Notes under the pieces: generated by a model
Databases searched by the model: none
Told to the model about the DNA's origin: nothing
Seen by the model: only the letters and a program-made list of their open reading frames with translations
Position numbers and translations under genes: made by a program
IMG/VR virus record: IMGVR_UViG_3300031862_000768
Coordinates: 1-22,249 of that record
Strand: one strand, 5' to 3'
DNA length: 22,249 nt
Origin: a virus
Shown: in pieces, positions 6,150-22,249 of the stretch
Layout: every line of letters begins with the position of its first letter
How positions within the stretch are numbered: the first letter of the stretch is position 1

Positions 6150-6980
6150 TTGGTAACCTTAACCGATCAGCAGTACAAGTACATCGATGAGGCAGTTGCT
6201 TGGCCACCGCGTCAGATGCTCATCGGCAGGCGCGTTGCACGAACCTTCGGCCCATTGGGCGAAGGCAAACTCACAATCGAGTGGACCAAGATCGCTGAAG
6301 TCGGCCCCGCTCAGTTATTCCGCAGCGAGAAGGTCACCGTGAGCGAAGACACCATCGACAACACTGTTGGCTCGCTGGATATACCGGCCATCGCGAGAGG
6401 TTTCAGGATTCCGCGCAGGAGCGTCGAAGCCTCACGCATAACGGGAACACCGCTTGATGTCGCCACGGCGAAGTCAGCGAGCTACAGGGTCTCACTGCTT
6501 GAGGATACGCTCATCCTGAAAGGGTCAGGTGGCCTCAACGGGTTCTATGACTCTGCCGGGAACGACTACTCGAGCTCGGCTGATTGGGATACCGCCACGA
6601 ATATCCTTCCGGCTGTAAACGGCGGCATCGACCTACTAACGGCTGACAACATATTTCCGCCTTACAACCTCGTCGTGAACCCGACTCAGTACGGCCAGCT
6701 CTTCGCGCTGGTTGCGAACACGAGCGAGTTCTACTACGATGTTGTCCAGCGGAGAATTGGCGGCCAGATCTTCCAGAGCCCCGCATTGACAGCGGGAACC
6801 GGTATGTTCCTCGCAAGCCCCGACGCTGGATTCTTTGATCTACCGCTAGGCGTGGATATCCACGCTGAGGTTGAGGAGCTCCCCCTGAACGAGTTCAAGG
6901 ACTTGTACGGCGTCGTGTGGGACGCGATCACTCCACGCGTTCGAGAAGCAAACGCGATCTGCAAACTTTCCGCGATTTGA
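6150..6980 (+). CDS. Major capsid protein, encapsulin-like HK97 fold
   Basis: 276 aa from TTG 6150, with AAGGAGG at 6133-6139 ten nt upstream. This is the main shell subunit. It resembles encapsulins/linocin-type proteins more than the longer HK97 gp5 type. Similar features are the opening LTDQQYKYIDEAV...LIGRRVARTFGPLGEG (cf. encapsulin LTEKQWQEID and the GPxG segment), a middle helix SYRVSLLEDTLILKGSGGLNGFYDS (cf. EDEVIFRG..GVKGLL), PYNLVVNPTQYGQLF (cf. PYTLVINTDRW), then GGQIFQSPAL and a C-terminus ending in RVREANAICKLS. The short length without an N-terminal delta domain fits a separately encoded scaffold. Given the flanking portal, terminase and tail genes it is a viral capsid, not a stand-alone nanocompartment. 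Confidence 0.8.
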   Translation: MVTLTDQQYKYIDEAVAWPPRQMLIGRRVARTFGPLGEGKLTIEWTKIAEVGPAQLFRSEKVTVSEDTIDNTVGSLDIPAIARGFRIPRRSVEASRITGTPLDVATAKSASYRVSLLEDTLILKGSGGLNGFYDSAGNDYSSSADWDTATNILPAVNGGIDLLTADNIFPPYNLVVNPTQYGQLFALVANTSEFYYDVVQRRIGGQIFQSPALTAGTGMFLASPDAGFFDLPLGVDIHAEVEELPLNEFKDLYGVVWDAITPRVREANAICKLSAI

Positions 6981-7983: not shown

Positions 7984-8195
7984 GTGAGCAGGGCTTTCAT
8001 CTGGCCAAGGCCAAGCAGACCAGCCAGATTCCAACGATTATCAAGTATGCGGGAAGCGCTCGCGTGAATGTGATGCGCTCGAACTCCATCCAGAACTCCT
8101 CGTCAAAGAGGAACATCATCGATCAACCTTGTCCTGTTCCATCGTCAAGCATAACCCTTGTGGGTGGTCTCGCAGATGCCCTCATGGTCAGCTAA
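7984..8195 (+). other. Ambiguous coding stretch, possible broken or tiny connector genes
   Basis: This 200-bp gap lies where a head-closure gene is expected. Two readings exist. (a) GTG 7984 with GAGGG 7972-7976 as SD gives 27 aa (VSRAFIWPRP...) ending at TGA 8065-8067, and GTG 8064 overlaps that stop as GTGA and gives 43 aa ending at TAA 8193-8195 inside the next gene. (b) The second frame is open from 7983 and reads as plausible protein throughout (GFHLAKAKQTSQIPTIIKYAG...), but its first ATG/GTG/TTG is GTG 8064. It is the frame of the preceding adaptor, separated by two TGAs. A frameshifted single gene of about 70 aa, two coupled mini-genes, or a decayed gene are all possible. Confidence 0.35.
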
Positions 8196-11001: not shown

Positions 11002-13530
11002 ATGTCCGCGCGTTCGCTTGGAAGCGTTGTTGTCGCCATCAAGGCGGTCGATGAAGCTTCCGGTGTTATGGGAAAGATCCAAGCTAGCATGAGCCTTGTC
11101 GGCGGTCAACTTAGCCAGTTAGGCGGTGGATTCGCACAGGTCGGCAATGTGATTCAAGGATTTGCGGCAGGTGGTGTCGCCGGTGCTGCCGTTGTGGCAG
11201 TTGGAGAAATTGCTAAAGGGCTTCAAGATTGCATCAAGGAAGCAACCGCATCTGAAGCAGTGTGGGCAAGCCTCGGTGCAGCAGTCGAGAGATCTGGCAT
11301 AGCATGGGATAAGGTCAGCACCGCAACGCATGACGCTCTCCTAGCGATGCAGAAAACGACCACATACAGCGATGAGCAACTCGCAGCGGCCCTTGAGCGG
11401 CTGATGACGTTCGGCCTCTCATACGATGATGCGATGCAGGCGCTTGGCAAGACCTTAGACTTCGCAGCCGCGAAACACATGGATCTAGAATCAGCGGCCA
11501 CACTTGTTGGCAAAGCGATGCATGGCAACACCGCGATCCTCAAGCGATACGGCGTCGATGTGACTACATCCAAGGACGCAGCTGCGGCCCTGAAGGATGT
11601 TCTAACCCCACTTGAAAACATATTCGCGGCCATGGGCGGCGATGTAGCGGATTTTGCATCGAACCTCGTCGAATCTGTCGGGGTGACAGCCGAGTTCGCT
11701 CAAGCTCTAGGTGAGGCGAAAGACCCAGCGAAGTTTCTAATCGAGCAGTTCCAGCAAGGCAACATAGACCTACCCCAATTCACGCAGATCCTCACTGACT
11801 TAGGCGTCCCACTTGACGCGACGAAGATGAAAGCTGGCGGTGCAGAGGAAGTTCTAGGAGCGCTGAACAAACAGTTTGGAGGCGCAGCGCAAGCGGCAGC
11901 GAGCACTTACGCGGGAATCCAAGAGCGGTTGAAGAATGCTACGGAGGAAGTCGGTGAGAAGATCGGTACAATCTTTCTACCCGCTCTTGCTTCGTTGACT
12001 GAGGCCTGCATCCCCGTCGTTGATGCGTTAGGAAAAGGCGTCGACGCCATCAGCACGTGGCTTGGTGAAGTTGCCAAGATGCCTGAAGTTCAAGCCGCAA
12101 CCGCAGTCGTGCAAGACGCGTTCGCTTCCCTTTGGGCTGGCATGGAAGACTGGTATGGCTTCGTAGTTGAGACATTCGGCCCTGTCATCCAAGATTTGAT
12201 CGGCGCATTCCACGAGATCTGGGAAGCATGCAGTCCGATCATTGAGGCTTTGCAGGAGATCTGGGATGCGATCACAGGCGGCATGGACACGGGCGACTGG
12301 CTCAAAGACTTCCTGAAACTAACCGCATTATTCATCAGAGAAGAAGTAGCCCCAGCGATCAAAGCCCTTGTGCCGATTATCAAAACAATGGCAGAGGGCT
12401 TCAAGGAGATGGCTGACCTCGTCGTCGGCCCAATCGAGACAATGAAGGCACTCATCATAGGCTTCCTGGATACGCTACACGATGCTTTCCAGAACTTCTA
12501 CAACTGGCTCGTGGGCGGGTCGCTTTGGCAAGATCTCTGGAATACTTTGCTAAGTGTTGCATCAGGAGTCCTACCCACGCTCGTTGGCATGATCACTAGC
12601 GTCTTCTCATCACTCAGTGGTGCCTTAGCAACGATCTGGGATCAGATGCAGACGGCCTTCAACACCGCGATCAAATCCATACAAGATACGTTATCGGCGG
12701 GATGGGAGACCATCAAGGAGAACGCGATCTCAATATGGGATGATGTTGCGAAACGCTCAACAGAGATCGTGACGCAGCTCTCGACTGATCTCACTTCGAT
12801 TTGGAGTGGTATACAGGGCATGGTCGAGTCCGTGATGACTGGCGTCGAGGAGACTATGACGGGCATCATCACGAACATCCAGACAACCTTCGAGAGCAGC
12901 TTCACCGATATGGCGGACATGTTTGATGAAGTGGTCAATGGTATACAGATGCTTTGGGATCAAGCCTGGTCAAACATCCAGGCGATCGGGCAGGCCTTGA
13001 TGGCGCTTATCTCAGGCGATGTGTCAGGCTTCGTTTCGGCGACTCAGGGATACATGGACAGTATGGGTGATAGCATCCAGAGCAGTGCGTCGGATGCGTG
13101 GACTGCTGTCACAAGCACAATTTCAGGTGCTCTCGACACGGCTGCGAGCGCAGTGTCAGGTTTCTGGAATTGGCTTGTCGGCGGCAGCGCTTGGCAGGAT
13201 GGCCTCGACCTGCTCATCAGGGTTACAGATCAGAAGATGGGCGTCCTAGCGGCGCTTGTACAAGAGCGCATCGATGAGATGAAGGACGCGTACAGTAGCG
13301 CGATGGGGTCGCCTATCTTCGGCGCACCCGCCGTTCCCGAAACGCTTCTCGCCGCGCCAGCGGCACTGGGTCAAGGAGCCACAGCGGGCTCAACAGCGGC
13401 GCCGGCAGCAAGTCAATTATCGAGCGTCACGCTGCCCGTAACTGTCCAAATTGATGGTGCGACAGTTGCTCGCGTCGTTGAGAGGCGCCTGATCGCGAAT
13501 AGACAACTCTCAGCCTGGAGGTCCGCTTAG
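11002..13530 (+). CDS. Tail tape measure protein
   Basis: 842 aa from ATG 11002, with AGGTGAGAGA just upstream; GTG 10993 is also in frame. The protein sets tail length and is ejected with the DNA. It is Ala/Gln-rich and helical, with the usual TP901-type N-terminal part (ALERLMTFGLSYDDAMQALGKTLDFAAAKHMDLESAATLVGKA), a hydrophobic Gly/Ala segment near residues 50-75, Trp-marked amphipathic repeats (SIWDDVAKRS, SIWSGIQGM, MLWDQAWSNIQ) and a typical C-terminal region. The motif NWLVGGSxWQD occurs twice (about 12502-12534 and 13168-13200), indicating an internal duplication. By the common rule of about 0.15 nm per residue, the tail would be roughly 125 nm. Confidence 0.9.
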   Translation: MSARSLGSVVVAIKAVDEASGVMGKIQASMSLVGGQLSQLGGGFAQVGNVIQGFAAGGVAGAAVVAVGEIAKGLQDCIKEATASEAVWASLGAAVERSGIAWDKVSTATHDALLAMQKTTTYSDEQLAAALERLMTFGLSYDDAMQALGKTLDFAAAKHMDLESAATLVGKAMHGNTAILKRYGVDVTTSKDAAAALKDVLTPLENIFAAMGGDVADFASNLVESVGVTAEFAQALGEAKDPAKFLIEQFQQGNIDLPQFTQILTDLGVPLDATKMKAGGAEEVLGALNKQFGGAAQAAASTYAGIQERLKNATEEVGEKIGTIFLPALASLTEACIPVVDALGKGVDAISTWLGEVAKMPEVQAATAVVQDAFASLWAGMEDWYGFVVETFGPVIQDLIGAFHEIWEACSPIIEALQEIWDAITGGMDTGDWLKDFLKLTALFIREEVAPAIKALVPIIKTMAEGFKEMADLVVGPIETMKALIIGFLDTLHDAFQNFYNWLVGGSLWQDLWNTLLSVASGVLPTLVGMITSVFSSLSGALATIWDQMQTAFNTAIKSIQDTLSAGWETIKENAISIWDDVAKRSTEIVTQLSTDLTSIWSGIQGMVESVMTGVEETMTGIITNIQTTFESSFTDMADMFDEVVNGIQMLWDQAWSNIQAIGQALMALISGDVSGFVSATQGYMDSMGDSIQSSASDAWTAVTSTISGALDTAASAVSGFWNWLVGGSAWQDGLDLLIRVTDQKMGVLAALVQERIDEMKDAYSSAMGSPIFGAPAVPETLLAAPAALGQGATAGSTAAPAASQLSSVTLPVTVQIDGATVARVVERRLIANRQLSAWRSA

Positions 13531-15918: not shown

Positions 15919-16518
15919 ATGCAAACGCAAAGAGACAGAGGGCGAGGCATAGACCTCGCGAACGCGCGACCAATCATTCGCGTAGTCGATCATGGGCTTT
16001 GGAGTCCCAACTGGTCCGTGCACAAGTTCAGGGAACATCGAGACCGCGTATACAAAGCAGCGCACGTTGAGGGCTTGCCCATCGAGTACCTGCTTGCCAA
16101 CTTTGAACTGATCGAATCACCACTGCGATTCCCTGGAAACTGTCTACTCAACGAGGGCATCAATGAGCTCTGGACGCTCGTTGCTGGTACAGGTGCAACA
16201 CTGTTCAATAATGCCAACGCATACATCGGCGTCGGAGATGACGCAACCGCAGCCGTCGCCACACAGACCGGACTCATAGCAGCCACCAACAAGAAATACA
16301 ACCCCATGGACACGTCCTATCCAACCTACGGGTCCTCGCAGAAAGTGACCCACCGAGCAACCTTCGCGTCTGGTGATGCGAACTTCCACTGGCAAGAAAT
16401 TACCGCCGCGAACGGAAATAGCGACGCATCGAAGAACCTGAACCGCAAAGTCCAGGATATGGGTACGAAAGCAAGCGCGACCAGTTGGGTTGCGACACAA
16501 GAAGTGACGCTCTCCTAG
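15919..16518 (+). CDS. Minor tail / fibre-associated structural protein
   Basis: 199 aa from ATG 15919, with GAGGGGAGGTGAG (15902-15914) as SD, four nt after the previous stop. The central and C-terminal part (NCLLNEGINELWTLVAGTGAT, NANAYIGVGDDATAAVATQTGL, YPTYGSSQKVTHRATFASGDAN, NRKVQDMGTKASATSWVATQEVTLS) matches a pattern I know from tail-fibre-linked virion proteins of many phages, with the AYIGVGDxxTAAxATQTGL core. The N-terminal 70 residues are more basic and may anchor it to the tail tip. The exact role is unknown. Confidence 0.65.
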   Translation: MQTQRDRGRGIDLANARPIIRVVDHGLWSPNWSVHKFREHRDRVYKAAHVEGLPIEYLLANFELIESPLRFPGNCLLNEGINELWTLVAGTGATLFNNANAYIGVGDDATAAVATQTGLIAATNKKYNPMDTSYPTYGSSQKVTHRATFASGDANFHWQEITAANGNSDASKNLNRKVQDMGTKASATSWVATQEVTLS

Positions 16519-16556
16519 AGCGCCTGATCAGTTATCACCAACGGAGGTGACATTGT

Positions 16557-16898
16557 TTGGTAGGAACTAGAGGAATCATCCATGTAGACCCAGGAGCCGA
16601 ACTGACCGCTGCTGAGTTCACATCAGTGACGTCACATAGTATTGCAAGCGGGACGGCCTTTCCAACCGACCCCGCCCCTGTTGAGATGGACCTATTCTAC
16701 AGGACAGATCAGCATAAGCTCTACATCTACAATGGCACAGATTGGAAAACCTGTGTAATCCTCACTGCTGCTGACGTTCCGACGGGCGTGGACGCGGCGA
16801 AACTCCAAAGCTATGATGTGCAAGCTCATGCGCCGCAAGACGGTGAATATCTGAAATGGGTGAACGCGAACAATCGCTGGGAACCAGCCACCATGTGA
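16557..16898 (+). CDS. Tail fibre, N-terminal part, ended by an in-frame TGA in a hairpin
   Basis: 113 aa from TTG 16557, with ACGGAGGTGA 16541-16550 as SD. The segment PAPVEMDLFYRTDQHKLYIYNGTDWK is a common fibre module, and DGEYLKWVNANNRWEPATM is the repeat often found before receptor-binding tips (compare D-G-x-x-L-x-W-x-x-x-N-x-x-W). The frame stops at TGA 16896-16898 and then stays open in the same frame to 17726. The open part shows homology to a downstream repeat before any start codon. This looks like one fibre gene of about 389 codons interrupted by a stop: read through, truncated, or switched. Confidence 0.7.
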   Translation: MVGTRGIIHVDPGAELTAAEFTSVTSHSIASGTAFPTDPAPVEMDLFYRTDQHKLYIYNGTDWKTCVILTAADVPTGVDAAKLQSYDVQAHAPQDGEYLKWVNANNRWEPATM

Positions 16899-16913
16899 TC
16901 ATATCACAGGTGG
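16888..16913. promoter_or_regulatory. Strong hairpin overlapping the fibre TGA
   Basis: CCACC 16888-16892 pairs with GGTGG 16909-16913 and TGTGAT 16894-16899 with ATCACA 16903-16908. A single A (16893) is bulged and CAT forms the loop: 11 base pairs in 26 bases. The stop codon (16896-16898) is inside the stem. It might affect termination or readthrough, be a recombination site, or act on transcription. Confidence 0.7.
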
Positions 16914-17726
16914 GTTCAAGCCGCGGGAGCGAGCGCGGGCACCCTTCCTGGTAGTTGCACACAGGAAAGTACGCAAGGCGATTTAACAGCTACAAGTAGA
17001 GGTACGACAATAACTGCCAATGCCTCAGCTCATGTTAAAGGTAATTATGCTGAGTTGGTTGCTTCTTCTCCTTTCGCATCTGATTGGGTCCTAGTCATCG
17101 TCAGCAGGGGTAGTACTACCGTAAACGCACGCTTTCTTATTGATATTGCAACAGGAGCGCAGGATTCAGAAGTTGTGAAGATCGCTAATCTCTATCACAT
17201 AACACAAGTGAGAGCGGGGGGAGGTTTTGGAGGTTGCGTCTATTTGTTGCCTCTTAGAATAGCGTCAGGGTCTAGGATAGCCGCACGCTGTCAATCATCG
17301 ACAGGTAGCTCTACAGTAGATGTTGAGGTTTGCTTACTCAATGGCGTAGGTGGCGGATTGAGCACGTGTGAAACCTGTGGAGCAGATACAGCCAATACCC
17401 GTGGTACGGCTATAACATCAGGCGCTGCACAACACGTGAAAGGAAATTACAGTCAGCTCATTGCATCAACAGGCGGCCAATACCGTTTCTGTGTATTCAG
17501 TATGCATCTGATAATTTCCTACAAGTGGCTGGTTGATTTAGCAACTGGCTCAGCGCAAAATGAAGTTGTCATAGTTGACAACTTAGCTGCAAGTCTCTAT
17601 GACTCTGATCAGATCATAGTCCCATTACCATTAACGATAGCGTCAGCATCCAGGATAGCTGCACGTTGTCAGACCGCCGATGGTGTCAACATTCCGTTTT
17701 ACGGAATCTTGTACGGCTGCTACTAG
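16899..17726 (+). pseudogene. Tail fibre, C-terminal receptor-binding part, start lacking
   Basis: 275 codons in the frame of the preceding gene, from after its TGA to TAG 17724-17726. The first start codon is TTG 17055, yet the homology with the second repeat begins before it, so 17055 is not a natural start. The part is a tandem duplication of about 115 aa: copy 1 from SRGTTITANASAHVKGNYAEL to RIASGSRIAARCQSS, copy 2 from TRGTAITSGAAQHVKGNYSQL to TIASASRIAARCQTA. Base usage is more AT-rich than in neighbouring genes from about 16990, suggesting recent acquisition of a fibre tip. Whether it is translated depends on readthrough or another mechanism; 'pseudogene' is a provisional label. Confidence 0.55.
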
Positions 17727-17732
17727 AGAGAA

Positions 17733-18602
17733 GTGAGACCACGCTTGCCATTCCCGTACACTTTCCCCTTCGTATTTGATGACTGCGACAAGAGATCGTC
17801 AGAAACAGGCTCGGGCACTGAAGCCATCGCAGTAGGCCCATTCGCGTCAGACTCGGGAATTGGAATAGACAGCCCCGACTTGAGCGCAGAGATCACACCC
17901 GCAGACGTCGGCGCCGGTATTGAAGCCCTCGCATTGGCCGTTGATGTTCCAGTAGGCGAGACGGGGTTAGGCGCAGAAGCGCCAAGCGTCCAAGCATCCC
18001 TTACCGAGACAGATTCAGGTGCGGGTAGCGAGACTCCTGGTATTACGGCAAGCATCCCTATCAGTGAGGCGGGCGCTGGATCAGAGGCAGAACAAGTAGT
18101 TGGATCAATCCCAATCGCTGAGTCTGGAGCGGGCAGCGAATCGGAGCAGCTCTCGGTAAGTCTGACCATCCCTGATTCCGGTCTAGGGGACGAGAACGTG
18201 ACGACCCCAGGCACGATCTTGATCGTGGAAGAAAGCAAAGGAGCGGAGTTCGCGTGGCGAATGAAGCCGTCAAGCCCAATGATCGACGCTCTTGCGTTGC
18301 CTCATGTCCTCGCCATCAGGGTGACTGACGAGGCCAGCATTGCAGATAAGAAAGTTCAAGGCGGATCCTTGCCACGACGAAAATTGGTCGGCAAACATGG
18401 ACGCGTGCTTGAGATCGAGGGATGGACAGACAATCAAGCTGATGTCGACGCATTAGAGGCCCTCCTCGACGGTGTGCGTCGAACATTCTATCATCCGAAC
18501 GGCGACTCCTTCGGTGTGCTTGTGACGGGGTTTCAGCCGAGCCGAACGGTCGACCAGTACAATCGCAGGTTATACCGACTAGCGGTTGCGGAGGCAAACT
18601 AG
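17733..18602 (+). CDS. Tail protein with 18-residue repeats and a C-terminal tail domain
   Basis: 289 aa from GTG 17733, six nt after the previous stop; TTG 17745 is an alternative. The N-terminus is Pro/Phe-rich (RLPFPYTFPFVFDD). From about 17802 to 18230 there are eight repeats of about 18 residues of the form SGxGxExxxVxxSIPIxE (for example SGAGSETPGITASIPISE and AGAGSEAEQVVGSIPIAE), acidic and regular enough for an extended beta-structure or spacer. The last 110 residues (HVLAIRVTDEASI, RRKLVGKHGRVLEIEGWTD, VDALEALLDGVRRTFYHPNGDSF, YNRRLYRLAVAEAN) look like a baseplate or distal-tail domain. Such repeat-plus-domain proteins are probably virion side fibres or tip components; the role is inferred. 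Confidence 0.65.
   Translation: MRPRLPFPYTFPFVFDDCDKRSSETGSGTEAIAVGPFASDSGIGIDSPDLSAEITPADVGAGIEALALAVDVPVGETGLGAEAPSVQASLTETDSGAGSETPGITASIPISEAGAGSEAEQVVGSIPIAESGAGSESEQLSVSLTIPDSGLGDENVTTPGTILIVEESKGAEFAWRMKPSSPMIDALALPHVLAIRVTDEASIADKKVQGGSLPRRKLVGKHGRVLEIEGWTDNQADVDALEALLDGVRRTFYHPNGDSFGVLVTGFQPSRTVDQYNRRLYRLAVAEAN
17802..18230 (+). repeat. Eight tandem 54-bp coding repeats (18 aa each)
   Basis: The repeat unit is 18 codons and keeps a Gly-x-Gly core and an acidic residue at the end. The first copy is shorter (about 16 residues) and the copies are diverged in DNA but clear in protein. They lie wholly inside the 17733-18602 gene. Confidence 0.7.
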
Positions 18603-19289: not shown

Positions 19290-22249
19290 GTGACGTGTCT
19301 CAAGTTGGCTAGTCGTAGTTCTGGTTCGCTATTGATAGTGCTGCTTCTCACCTCAGCATTGTTTGTTTCGATCTACTCCGTCGCCACGCCCCCAAAGAAG
19401 GCGTATGCTGCTCTGACTGTTACTCTGACAGGTCCGGCTGCTCCATATGGAATTGGTGGTGCATCTGGGAAGTTTGGCGACACAATAATTGTTACGGCGA
19501 CGGGCGGTGCCGAGCCAGACGGGACACATTGTTTGATTAGCAGTAGCCCGGTCAACATTATCTCAAGCTACAGCGCCCAAGTCTTTCTCGATGCTGGGCC
19601 AGTACTTAGAGTCCATGGCTTCTTCGTCGTTGGAAGTGGACCCGCTCCTGCCGGAAGTGGACCAGTTACTGTAACGGTCACCTGCGGAGCTGACATTGGC
19701 TTCACTACCTTCCATCTGGATCCTTTCATCGCAATTACTCCATCATTTGGCGCGGTTGGTCAGACTATTTCCATCAGCGGTTTCGGCTTCGCAAATACCG
19801 CCAGCAGCTGCCACATAACTGCTACATTGCCCCCAGTTAGTGCGGAGACCTGCCATGTCAGTGGAGGAACGCTCTATAGTACGAGTTTCACTGTTGCCGC
19901 TGTTGCGCCCGCTACTTTTACGATAACGATAACTCCGAACGCCGGCGATTCAGCCAGCGGCAAATTCGAGATGGTAGCCTCACGAAAGATATCTTTAGAT
20001 CCCCAATACATTTTCGGCACGACTCTGCCCGCGTTACGGGCGGGACCTACGACTGCCCCGCGGGGGTACGGAACTGCTGGCGCGAGCTATGAGGTCAAAG
20101 TCACCGGCGGGGGATTCGTAGCTAATCACGCTTGCGAATTGACCCCAGTGCCGGCCGGGTTGATTTATGCAAGTAAAAGCTGCTCAATCAATTCGGTAGG
20201 CACATTGACCGCAAGTTTCGCGGTTGACGTTACGTCCACTGTTGGCGCTGCATATACCATTACAGTCACGGATACGACCGACTCTGTTACGGCCACCTAT
20301 CTGAACTTCGCGGTAACGGACAAGCCGACCTTCACCCTCGACTTTGTAAATGCACACGCCGGCGAAGCGGTCAGCACAGTTGTGGGTGCTAACAACTATT
20401 CTCCGTTAGACGCAGGCGCATGTGGTTCAATGTCATCCACTCCAAGCGGCCTCATCACCTCTCCTCAATTCTGCATGATCGACAATACTGCGACTCCTGC
20501 AATTGTAAGAGCCAGATTCACGGTTTCCGGAACAATTCCTGGAACGCAGATTTACAATGTAATTGTCACGGGTAAACATGGTGACCCGTCTGCCTCTCCT
20601 GGGCCAGGCCTAAATGTGCAGGCTTATGTGACCATAGCTAGTCCTTTATCAGCTCAAGGTTCTCCACCCTTGGGAACACTTCCAGGAACACTCGTATCCA
20701 TCTCAGGGACAGGTTTCTTGGTGACTGACTCATCCTGCAATATTGCGCCCTCAGCACCAGGTCTAGTAGTCTCAAGTCCGTTTTGCGCAGTGATCGTAGG
20801 TACAGGGGTTCTCTCAGCAACATTCGTCGTCGGTGCGGGTTCGACCTTTGTGGCTGGAGGCTACACGCTCACGGTGACGGGAACGCTAGGAGGCGATGCT
20901 GCTATAAACGCTCCAACTTTCGCCGTTGTGCCGCGAATTGCCGTATCACCCGTTTCAAGCCCGAGCGGGGTGCTTGTCACCCTTTCAGGCTCAGGTTTCG
21001 ATATAGGTGCTGGTATAGCATGCGTTAGTATTGAATCCTGGCTAGGTGGGGTAAATGTACCGCTAGATGCAGCATTCGGGACTCCTCCGGGCTCGGGCGT
21101 ACCCTGCACGGTCAACCCTGTCGGAACGGTCGTTGGGATCTTTACCCTTGATCCTGCGAGGCCCAACGGTCTGTATACGATTATTGTCCAAGGAGTCACC
21201 TTAGGAGCTGACACCGCTTCTACCCTTATCACGAAAGGCCTTCCGGTGGCGTTGACGATTTTACCGTTTTCCGGTCCGACCACGGTAGGAGCTGTGACTG
21301 TCACAGCCCCTGCGGGTTCTTTCGGTGCGCTCGACCGTGGATTACCGTGCGGGATCACTGCGCCGTCGGGGTCGAACCTCTTCGCAGGCGTTCCAACGCC
21401 CTCATGCGCGATAAGCTCCACGGGGGCTCTCTCCGCCTCTTTCACGGTGAGTGCAACTGCGCAAGGTGGCACTTGGACTGTCCAGATAAACGGTGGTGGA
21501 GGAGGCTTTGCAACTGGCAACTTCGCGGTGACGCCGGTAATGACTCTGGTGCCCTTGAGCGGTGAATCTTTTGCGCCGGTCTCTATCACGGGCTCCGGCT
21601 TCAGCGCAGCCGACGCGGCAGCAGGTTGTGTGGGAACTTTGTTCAGCACACCAGCCGGATTGCTGTCTGGCGTGTCTTGCAGCATCTCAGGAATCACTTT
21701 CCAGATGACTGGAACCTTCTCGGTCGCTGGGATACCTCCCGCTCCTGGGCCGTATACGGTGACCTTCCCAAGCTCGCTCGGGCCAGTATCTGCGCCGACC
21801 TTCACCAAGTCTGCATCAGCCTTCAATCTAGTGCCTAATTTCGGACCCACAGGCATCGTAGTGGCTGTTGATGGGACTGGCTTCCCTTCCGCCGATGGAA
21901 CCTGCGCCATCACTGCTGCACCCGATATCATAGCGTCATCTCCCCCTCCGTGTTCAATCACTGGGGGAGTAGTTACAGGTTCGTTCACGGTCGTTGGAAC
22001 CGCTGTTCCCGGTATCTCGACTGTGACCGTTACTTCAAATCCAAGCAGCACGTCCAAGTCTGCTCCGTTCCGGGTGGATCCGACAATCTCGCTGTCGCCA
22101 CCGTCCGGAGGAGCTGGAGTCCTCGTGACCATTTCAGGCTCGAACTTTGCTGTAGGTGATATTGGATGCGCGATCACTTCGTCTCCGAGCGGGTTGATCT
22201 CAGGCCCGTCATGTGTGGTGGTTGCCGGCGTAATGTCTGGATTGTTCAC
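19290..22249 (+). CDS. Large secreted Ig-like repeat surface protein, 5' part
   Basis: GTG 19290 and 986 codons without a stop to the window end; the C-terminus is missing. Residues about 12-40 form a signal peptide (SLLIVLLLTSALFVSIYSVAT then PKKAYA), so it is exported. The rest is about ten Ig-like (IPT/TIG or Big-type) repeats of 80-100 aa. Each has a strand pattern such as VSISGTGF or VTLSGSGF, usually a Cys pair (GTCAITA...PCSIT; GCAITS...SCVVV) and a TFTV...G.YTVTVT ending. The Cys pairs suggest one disulfide per repeat, fitting an extracellular stalk or S-layer-associated adhesin. Thr, Val, Ser and Gly dominate. Composition and promoter differ from the viral operon, so it may be a host gene flanking a provirus; a viral receptor-binding protein is the alternative. 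Confidence 0.8.
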   Translation, partial: MTCLKLASRSSGSLLIVLLLTSALFVSIYSVATPPKKAYAALTVTLTGPAAPYGIGGASGKFGDTIIVTATGGAEPDGTHCLISSSPVNIISSYSAQVFLDAGPVLRVHGFFVVGSGPAPAGSGPVTVTVTCGADIGFTTFHLDPFIAITPSFGAVGQTISISGFGFANTASSCHITATLPPVSAETCHVSGGTLYSTSFTVAAVAPATFTITITPNAGDSASGKFEMVASRKISLDPQYIFGTTLPALRAGPTTAPRGYGTAGASYEVKVTGGGFVANHACELTPVPAGLIYASKSCSINSVGTLTASFAVDVTSTVGAAYTITVTDTTDSVTATYLNFAVTDKPTFTLDFVNAHAGEAVSTVVGANNYSPLDAGACGSMSSTPSGLITSPQFCMIDNTATPAIVRARFTVSGTIPGTQIYNVIVTGKHGDPSASPGPGLNVQAYVTIASPLSAQGSPPLGTLPGTLVSISGTGFLVTDSSCNIAPSAPGLVVSSPFCAVIVGTGVLSATFVVGAGSTFVAGGYTLTVTGTLGGDAAINAPTFAVVPRIAVSPVSSPSGVLVTLSGSGFDIGAGIACVSIESWLGGVNVPLDAAFGTPPGSGVPCTVNPVGTVVGIFTLDPARPNGLYTIIVQGVTLGADTASTLITKGLPVALTILPFSGPTTVGAVTVTAPAGSFGALDRGLPCGITAPSGSNLFAGVPTPSCAISSTGALSASFTVSATAQGGTWTVQINGGGGGFATGNFAVTPVMTLVPLSGESFAPVSITGSGFSAADAAAGCVGTLFSTPAGLLSGVSCSISGITFQMTGTFSVAGIPPAPGPYTVTFPSSLGPVSAPTFTKSASAFNLVPNFGPTGIVVAVDGTGFPSADGTCAITAAPDIIASSPPPCSITGGVVTGSFTVVGTAVPGISTVTVTSNPSSTSKSAPFRVDPTISLSPPSGGAGVLVTISGSNFAVGDIGCAITSSPSGLISGPSCVVVAGVMSGLF

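Follow-up and report, generated by a model that had tools for sequence, protein, structure and literature searches.

Is the interrupted tail-fibre gene described here one gene or two, and does the stop codon that divides it have a function? The gene lies in an IMG/VR record of 22,249 bases, hereafter the window, which also carries genes for terminase, portal, an encapsulin-like major capsid protein (MCP), a tape measure and tail proteins. It starts at TTG 16557, preceded by the Shine-Dalgarno sequence GGAGGTG, and encodes 113 aa (16557-16895) followed by an in-frame TGA and then by 275 open codons up to a TAG. The region consists of the following features:

16557..16751, plus strand: fibre N-terminal anchor domain with a TTG start (47-57 % identity to the N-terminus of 19 IMG/VR loci)
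16752..16895, plus strand: collar repeat (SYDVQAHAPQDGEYLKWVNANNRWEPATM), ending at the TGA (similarity to S-CBS2 gp32)
16888..16913, no strand assigned: hairpin or palindrome of 11 bp with one bulged A and a 3-nt loop, spanning ATG-TGA (fold and palindrome searches)
16896..16898, plus strand: in-frame TGA (frame translation; TGA is used as stop by eight other genes)
16899..16955, plus strand: linker SYHRWVQAAGASAGTLPGS, GC 63 %, predicted to be disordered
16956..17723, start approximate, plus strand: fibre tip of two tandem beta-sandwich domains, low GC3, no start of its own (repeat alignment, profile search, structure model)
17724-17726, plus strand: TAG stop of the tip (frame translation)

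The other two frames of the downstream stretch carry 23 and 19 stops, and none of 2000 base shuffles of the stretch was open, so the downstream frame is coding sequence. After the TGA this frame has no ATG, GTG or TTG until TTG 17055, and CTG and ATN codons are likewise missing up to ATA 17010, the first ATN. No well-placed Shine-Dalgarno sequence lies upstream of TTG 17055, and we rejected this codon as the start of the tip since the first strands of domain 1 would be lost. One domain is present twice in the tip, at 16980-17351 and 17379-17723, with copies of about 120 aa that are 42 % identical. The initial annotation had reported a frame open past the TGA, no start codon until 17055 and repeat homology beginning ahead of that position, and all three observations hold.

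To place the gene in its genomic context we compared the window with related records. One of them, the sister virus G001 (IMGVR 3300044798_000668), is 82-89 % identical at the DNA level across most head and neck genes and less so in tail genes. Three relatives of the terminase were found in GTDB, all of them Candidatus Bathyarchaeota MAGs, and one of these terminase-bearing MAGs also contains relatives of the portal and the methylase; a Bathyarchaeia host is therefore likely, though not proven. The gene adjoining the fibre has no match in these MAGs. The window thus probably represents a head-tailed virus of Bathyarchaeia, a group for which viruses are already known (PMC10848311). TGA is an ordinary stop in this virus: it ends eight well-placed genes (at 2412, 6980, 7973, 8529, 10472, 15609, 15914 and 18954), including the terminase C-part, the MCP and tail gene 13531. 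Among the relatives G001 and G002 no tRNA genes, which could act as suppressors, were found.

Several other features of the window deserve mention. The MCP (6150-6980) matches the encapsulin family of Pfam well (Linocin_M18, 1.4e-29) and shares 96 % identity with that of the sister virus, whereas the fibre genes of the two viruses are unrelated. A stop and a frame change separate the terminase large subunit into one ORF for the ATPase and one for the nuclease (918-1844 and 1846-2412). The subunit is likewise split in the sister virus (L017:10464-12010), with 187 extra bases between the ORFs (11260-11446), and unsplit in the three Bathyarchaeota relatives (L159-L161); the interruption may stem from an inserted element or reflect a true division of the gene. 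A 113-nt stretch that is intergenic in the window (7997-8109) recurs with 79 % identity within the split terminase of the sister (L017:11273-11385) and is a possible small mobile element. At the other end, 19290-22247 encodes a very long, secreted-looking repeat protein that runs off the contig and has a weak MG2 match only. This protein may be an adhesin of the virus; if it is instead a surface protein of the host, the contig end would be a provirus edge.

What does the upstream half normally look like? Of the 19 IMG/VR loci that share the anchor, 16 have a complete ORF, and all 16 continue without a stop through the collar into a distal part, spanning 263-488 codons from stop to stop. The 113-aa stub of the window is therefore anomalous. 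The collar is 48 % identical over 42 aa to gp32 of Synechococcus phage S-CBS2, which extends beyond the repeat, and the same repeat is present in other proteins, likewise with more protein after it.

The downstream half belongs to a family of its own. Structure prediction yields two beta-sandwich domains with a mean pLDDT of 89, while most of residues 1-17 fall below 50 (residues 1-8 and 13-17). Fold searches of PDB and BFVD with the tip yielded beta-sandwich matches of a generic kind only, with TM scores that were low, and Pfam and PHROG gave no match of note. A profile of the tip matched at least 173 viral stretches and found no relative in GTDB genomes, revealing a widespread viral tip family. 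Members (L024-L140) were seen here in viral contigs only, frequently as tandem gene pairs (L026, L027, L034). They are homologous along their whole length and contain two repeats, as the window tip does, and every clear relative encodes the tip separately, in a gene of about 280 aa that has a start codon of its own. A start codon is found 20-60 codons ahead of the first KG motif in 75 of 77 distinct relatives; the two exceptions (L027, beginning MGDW, and L086) are parsing failures and both possess starts. The window has no such codon.

These separate genes raise the possibility that the TGA is the inherited, true end of an upstream gene and that the start of a downstream tip gene has been lost or goes unrecognised. 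In relatives, an in-frame stop is often followed about one codon later by the start of the tip gene, and an unbiased alignment pairs Tyr 16902 of the window with the start Met of the relatives and Trp 16911 with their Trp-4 (MGDW, MADW and similar). We nevertheless regard two genes as rather unlikely, given that no start codon of any kind precedes ATA 17010 and that a 113-aa anchor lacking a distal part is not seen among the anchor relatives; the base composition of the linker, which resembles the upstream part, is mildly against it as well. If the start had indeed been lost, the tip would be silent unless read through.

The composition of the region was examined further. GC of the linker exceeds that of the tip (p = 0.008), and GC3 is 0.52-0.56 in the anchor and collar versus 0.33-0.43 in the tip. 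The GC3 changepoint is best placed at 16944, with a 2-unit support interval of 16893-16989 and a permutation p of 0.026; a changepoint in overall GC alone is not significant (p 0.17). The GC3 break lies near the point, at about 16956, where the ordered tip begins, and both are downstream of the hairpin, although the support interval reaches the hairpin. In the model of the read-through product, residues 113-129 around the TGA (residue 114) are of low confidence, with a pLDDT below 50, placing the stop in a linker, and these residues are probably disordered.

An orthologue of the whole interrupted fibre was not found, and none of the other records examined joins the two halves; our judgement between a lesion, an inherited boundary and readthrough comes from comparing each half separately. 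The sister virus has an unrelated gene in the fibre slot, indicating that the slot exchanges modules between viruses. With fibre-anchor homology and a distal domain in the same frame, interrupted only by the TGA, the fibre has the appearance of a chimaera of anchor, collar and tip that occupies a hypervariable slot. We hypothesize that a tip from a family otherwise encoded as a separate gene was joined in frame to a resident anchor and collar. The missing tip start is as expected if the tip came to be translated from upstream after such a fusion. Since the anchor expects a distal domain and the tip has no start, an in-frame fusion appears to be the simplest history. The initial annotation was right to treat the TGA as dividing one would-be fibre: the anchor relatives read on, and the tip has no start of its own.

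The 11-bp stem does cover the stop, as initially described. Its sequence, CCACC-A-TGTGAT-cat-ATCACA-GGTGG, folds at -14.5 kcal/mol as a 27-mer and is the sole stem of the window with at least 11 bp, at most 1 bulge and a loop of 3-8, for an expectation from shuffles of 0.35 per window. Two other 27-mers in the window fold equally well, the MCP stop (6980) folds more strongly than the fibre TGA, and the stability of the 36 nt around the fibre TGA has a p of 0.084 among spans of the same genome; the surrounding 91 nt have a folding z of -2.0. The hairpin is thus real and moderately unusual as a compact palindrome, and is not outstanding as an RNA structure. Neither 160 other loci nor IMG/VR contain it, so we rejected it as a mobile or repeated element; the missing T-run after the stem led us to reject a terminator. 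A palindrome search of the window allowing 3 mismatches recovered weak half-sites only and no second copy, and Rfam has no match at E <= 1 across 16400-17800.

One explanation for a stop within a hairpin is leaky or programmed UGA readthrough, which would yield mostly short anchors and few full fibres, and hence virions with few tips. The frame is open on both sides with the downstream part intact, the linker that holds the stop joins folded parts, and the hairpin covers the stop. Yet the hairpin is conserved in no other locus or IMG/VR contig, and the anchor relatives have no such device. Stimulators of readthrough sit downstream of the stop. The stem of the window instead holds the stop and ends 15 nt past it, and by the time the UGA enters the A site, the ribosome would probably have melted the stem. 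The UGA is followed by U, which is not the leaky context, and a literature search on UGA readthrough in phages found nothing pertinent. The coincidence of stop and hairpin that had led the initial annotation to propose programmed readthrough is real, and nothing else speaks for a programmed event. Taken together, we consider readthrough unlikely, and doubt still more that an archaeal head-tailed virus uses a hairpin-buried UGA as a switch giving many short anchors and few receptor-binding fibres per mRNA. A decoded UGA would represent a rare example of an archaeal virus reading through a stop with an ordinary amino acid, and would allow fibre number to be tuned.

Alternatively fibre tips may be exchanged by recombination or inversion at the hairpin, another early suggestion. 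Exchange of the slot between the related viruses agrees with it, while the partner palindrome and the alternative tip that it calls for are lacking: the palindrome has no second copy in the window and is absent from relatives, and the minus strand has no tip-like ORF. The hairpin is upstream of the tip domain and of the best-placed GC3 break, even if the support interval of the break just reaches it. The only inverted pair that could serve as crossover sites is one of 10 nt (16882-16891/17525-17534), and an invertible fibre segment was rejected for want of longer flanking sites and of a minus-strand tip ORF. A switch site of this kind is very improbable.

It is still less credible that the stop is decoded or removed by bypass, selenocysteine insertion, a reassigned UGA or an archaeal bulge-helix-bulge intron. 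Bypass was attractive as the stop adjoins a would-be take-off codon inside the stem, as in T4 gene 60, where a matched landing codon is required (PMC5009743). The take-off codon here would be AUG; the AUGs at 17020, 17032 and 17047 are out of frame and none is in frame within 300 nt downstream, so this part of the initial proposal fails. Selenocysteine insertion was rejected as no SECIS element was detected (no Rfam match in the region at the threshold above), and a UGA-reassigned code as UGA ends eight well-placed genes. For the intron, we required a 3-nt bulge on each strand, with 4 bp separating the two, and exons in frame after excision. An extended fold does offer a 3-nt bulge and a 4-bp helix, but its bulges of 3 and 1 nt are on the same strand, the expected 3'-strand bulge is missing, and excision of 20 nt would put the tip out of frame.

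We therefore return to a nonsense mutation, which among the candidates first put forward is the best supported, by the unbroken ORFs of 16 of 16 anchor relatives, the missing tip start and the normal use of TGA as stop. On balance we favour the view that the locus is one gene by descent, an anchor-collar-tip fusion, in which the UGA is an ordinary nonsense lesion, either a population allele or a consensus error; that it is a lesion with no programmed function is most likely. The UGA in the flexible linker would then act as a plain stop and the product would be a 113-aa anchor/collar stub. Provided that the base is genuine and fixed, the tip would be made at the level of background readthrough or not at all. 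The hairpin would be incidental, or the mark of a mutation in the linker such as a hairpin-templated change, and not a decoding signal. The 275 downstream codons contain no further stop, and the interruption is therefore either of recent date or still tolerated. Some observations do not fit as well. None of the genes shared with the sister virus is disrupted in the window contig alone, which makes a consensus error not obviously likely, and an 11-bp hairpin and a stop are unlikely to coincide by chance alone. Relatives with a sense codon and no hairpin, which the initial annotation had named as a refutation, could be sought only indirectly: relatives of the anchor half read on with neither stop nor hairpin, and for the whole gene no orthologue with a sense codon at the TGA position was found. 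As a lesion, the locus would be a clear example of a receptor-binding tip swapped between architectures, from separate gene to fused fibre, and would show how a single doubtful base can divide a gene in the genome of an uncultivated virus.

Compared with known systems, the locus is analogous to T4 gene 60 in having a stop directly behind a would-be take-off codon inside a stem-loop, and differs in that its parts share one frame without a matched landing codon and that the element is in no relative. In Q-beta, a leaky UGA lies between the short coat protein and the longer virion protein A1. The UGA of the window likewise separates a short from a longer candidate virion protein, but its hairpin has no second instance among the loci compared or in IMG/VR, and readthrough is a prediction from sequence. 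The locus also resembles two fibre systems. Fibres of the anchor-collar-tip type (for instance S-CBS2 gp32 and the anchor family L002, L141-L158) likewise have the anchor or the collar repeats and are modular with a hypervariable distal part; unlike them, the window has an in-frame UGA after the collar and a tip from a family of separate genes. With the stand-alone tips (Manatee Spring podovirus ctjLE16, UOF79624, and L024-L140) it shares two domains of about 120 aa, a length of about 280 aa and a stop directly upstream, and it departs from them in carrying a tip without a start codon, in frame behind an anchor.
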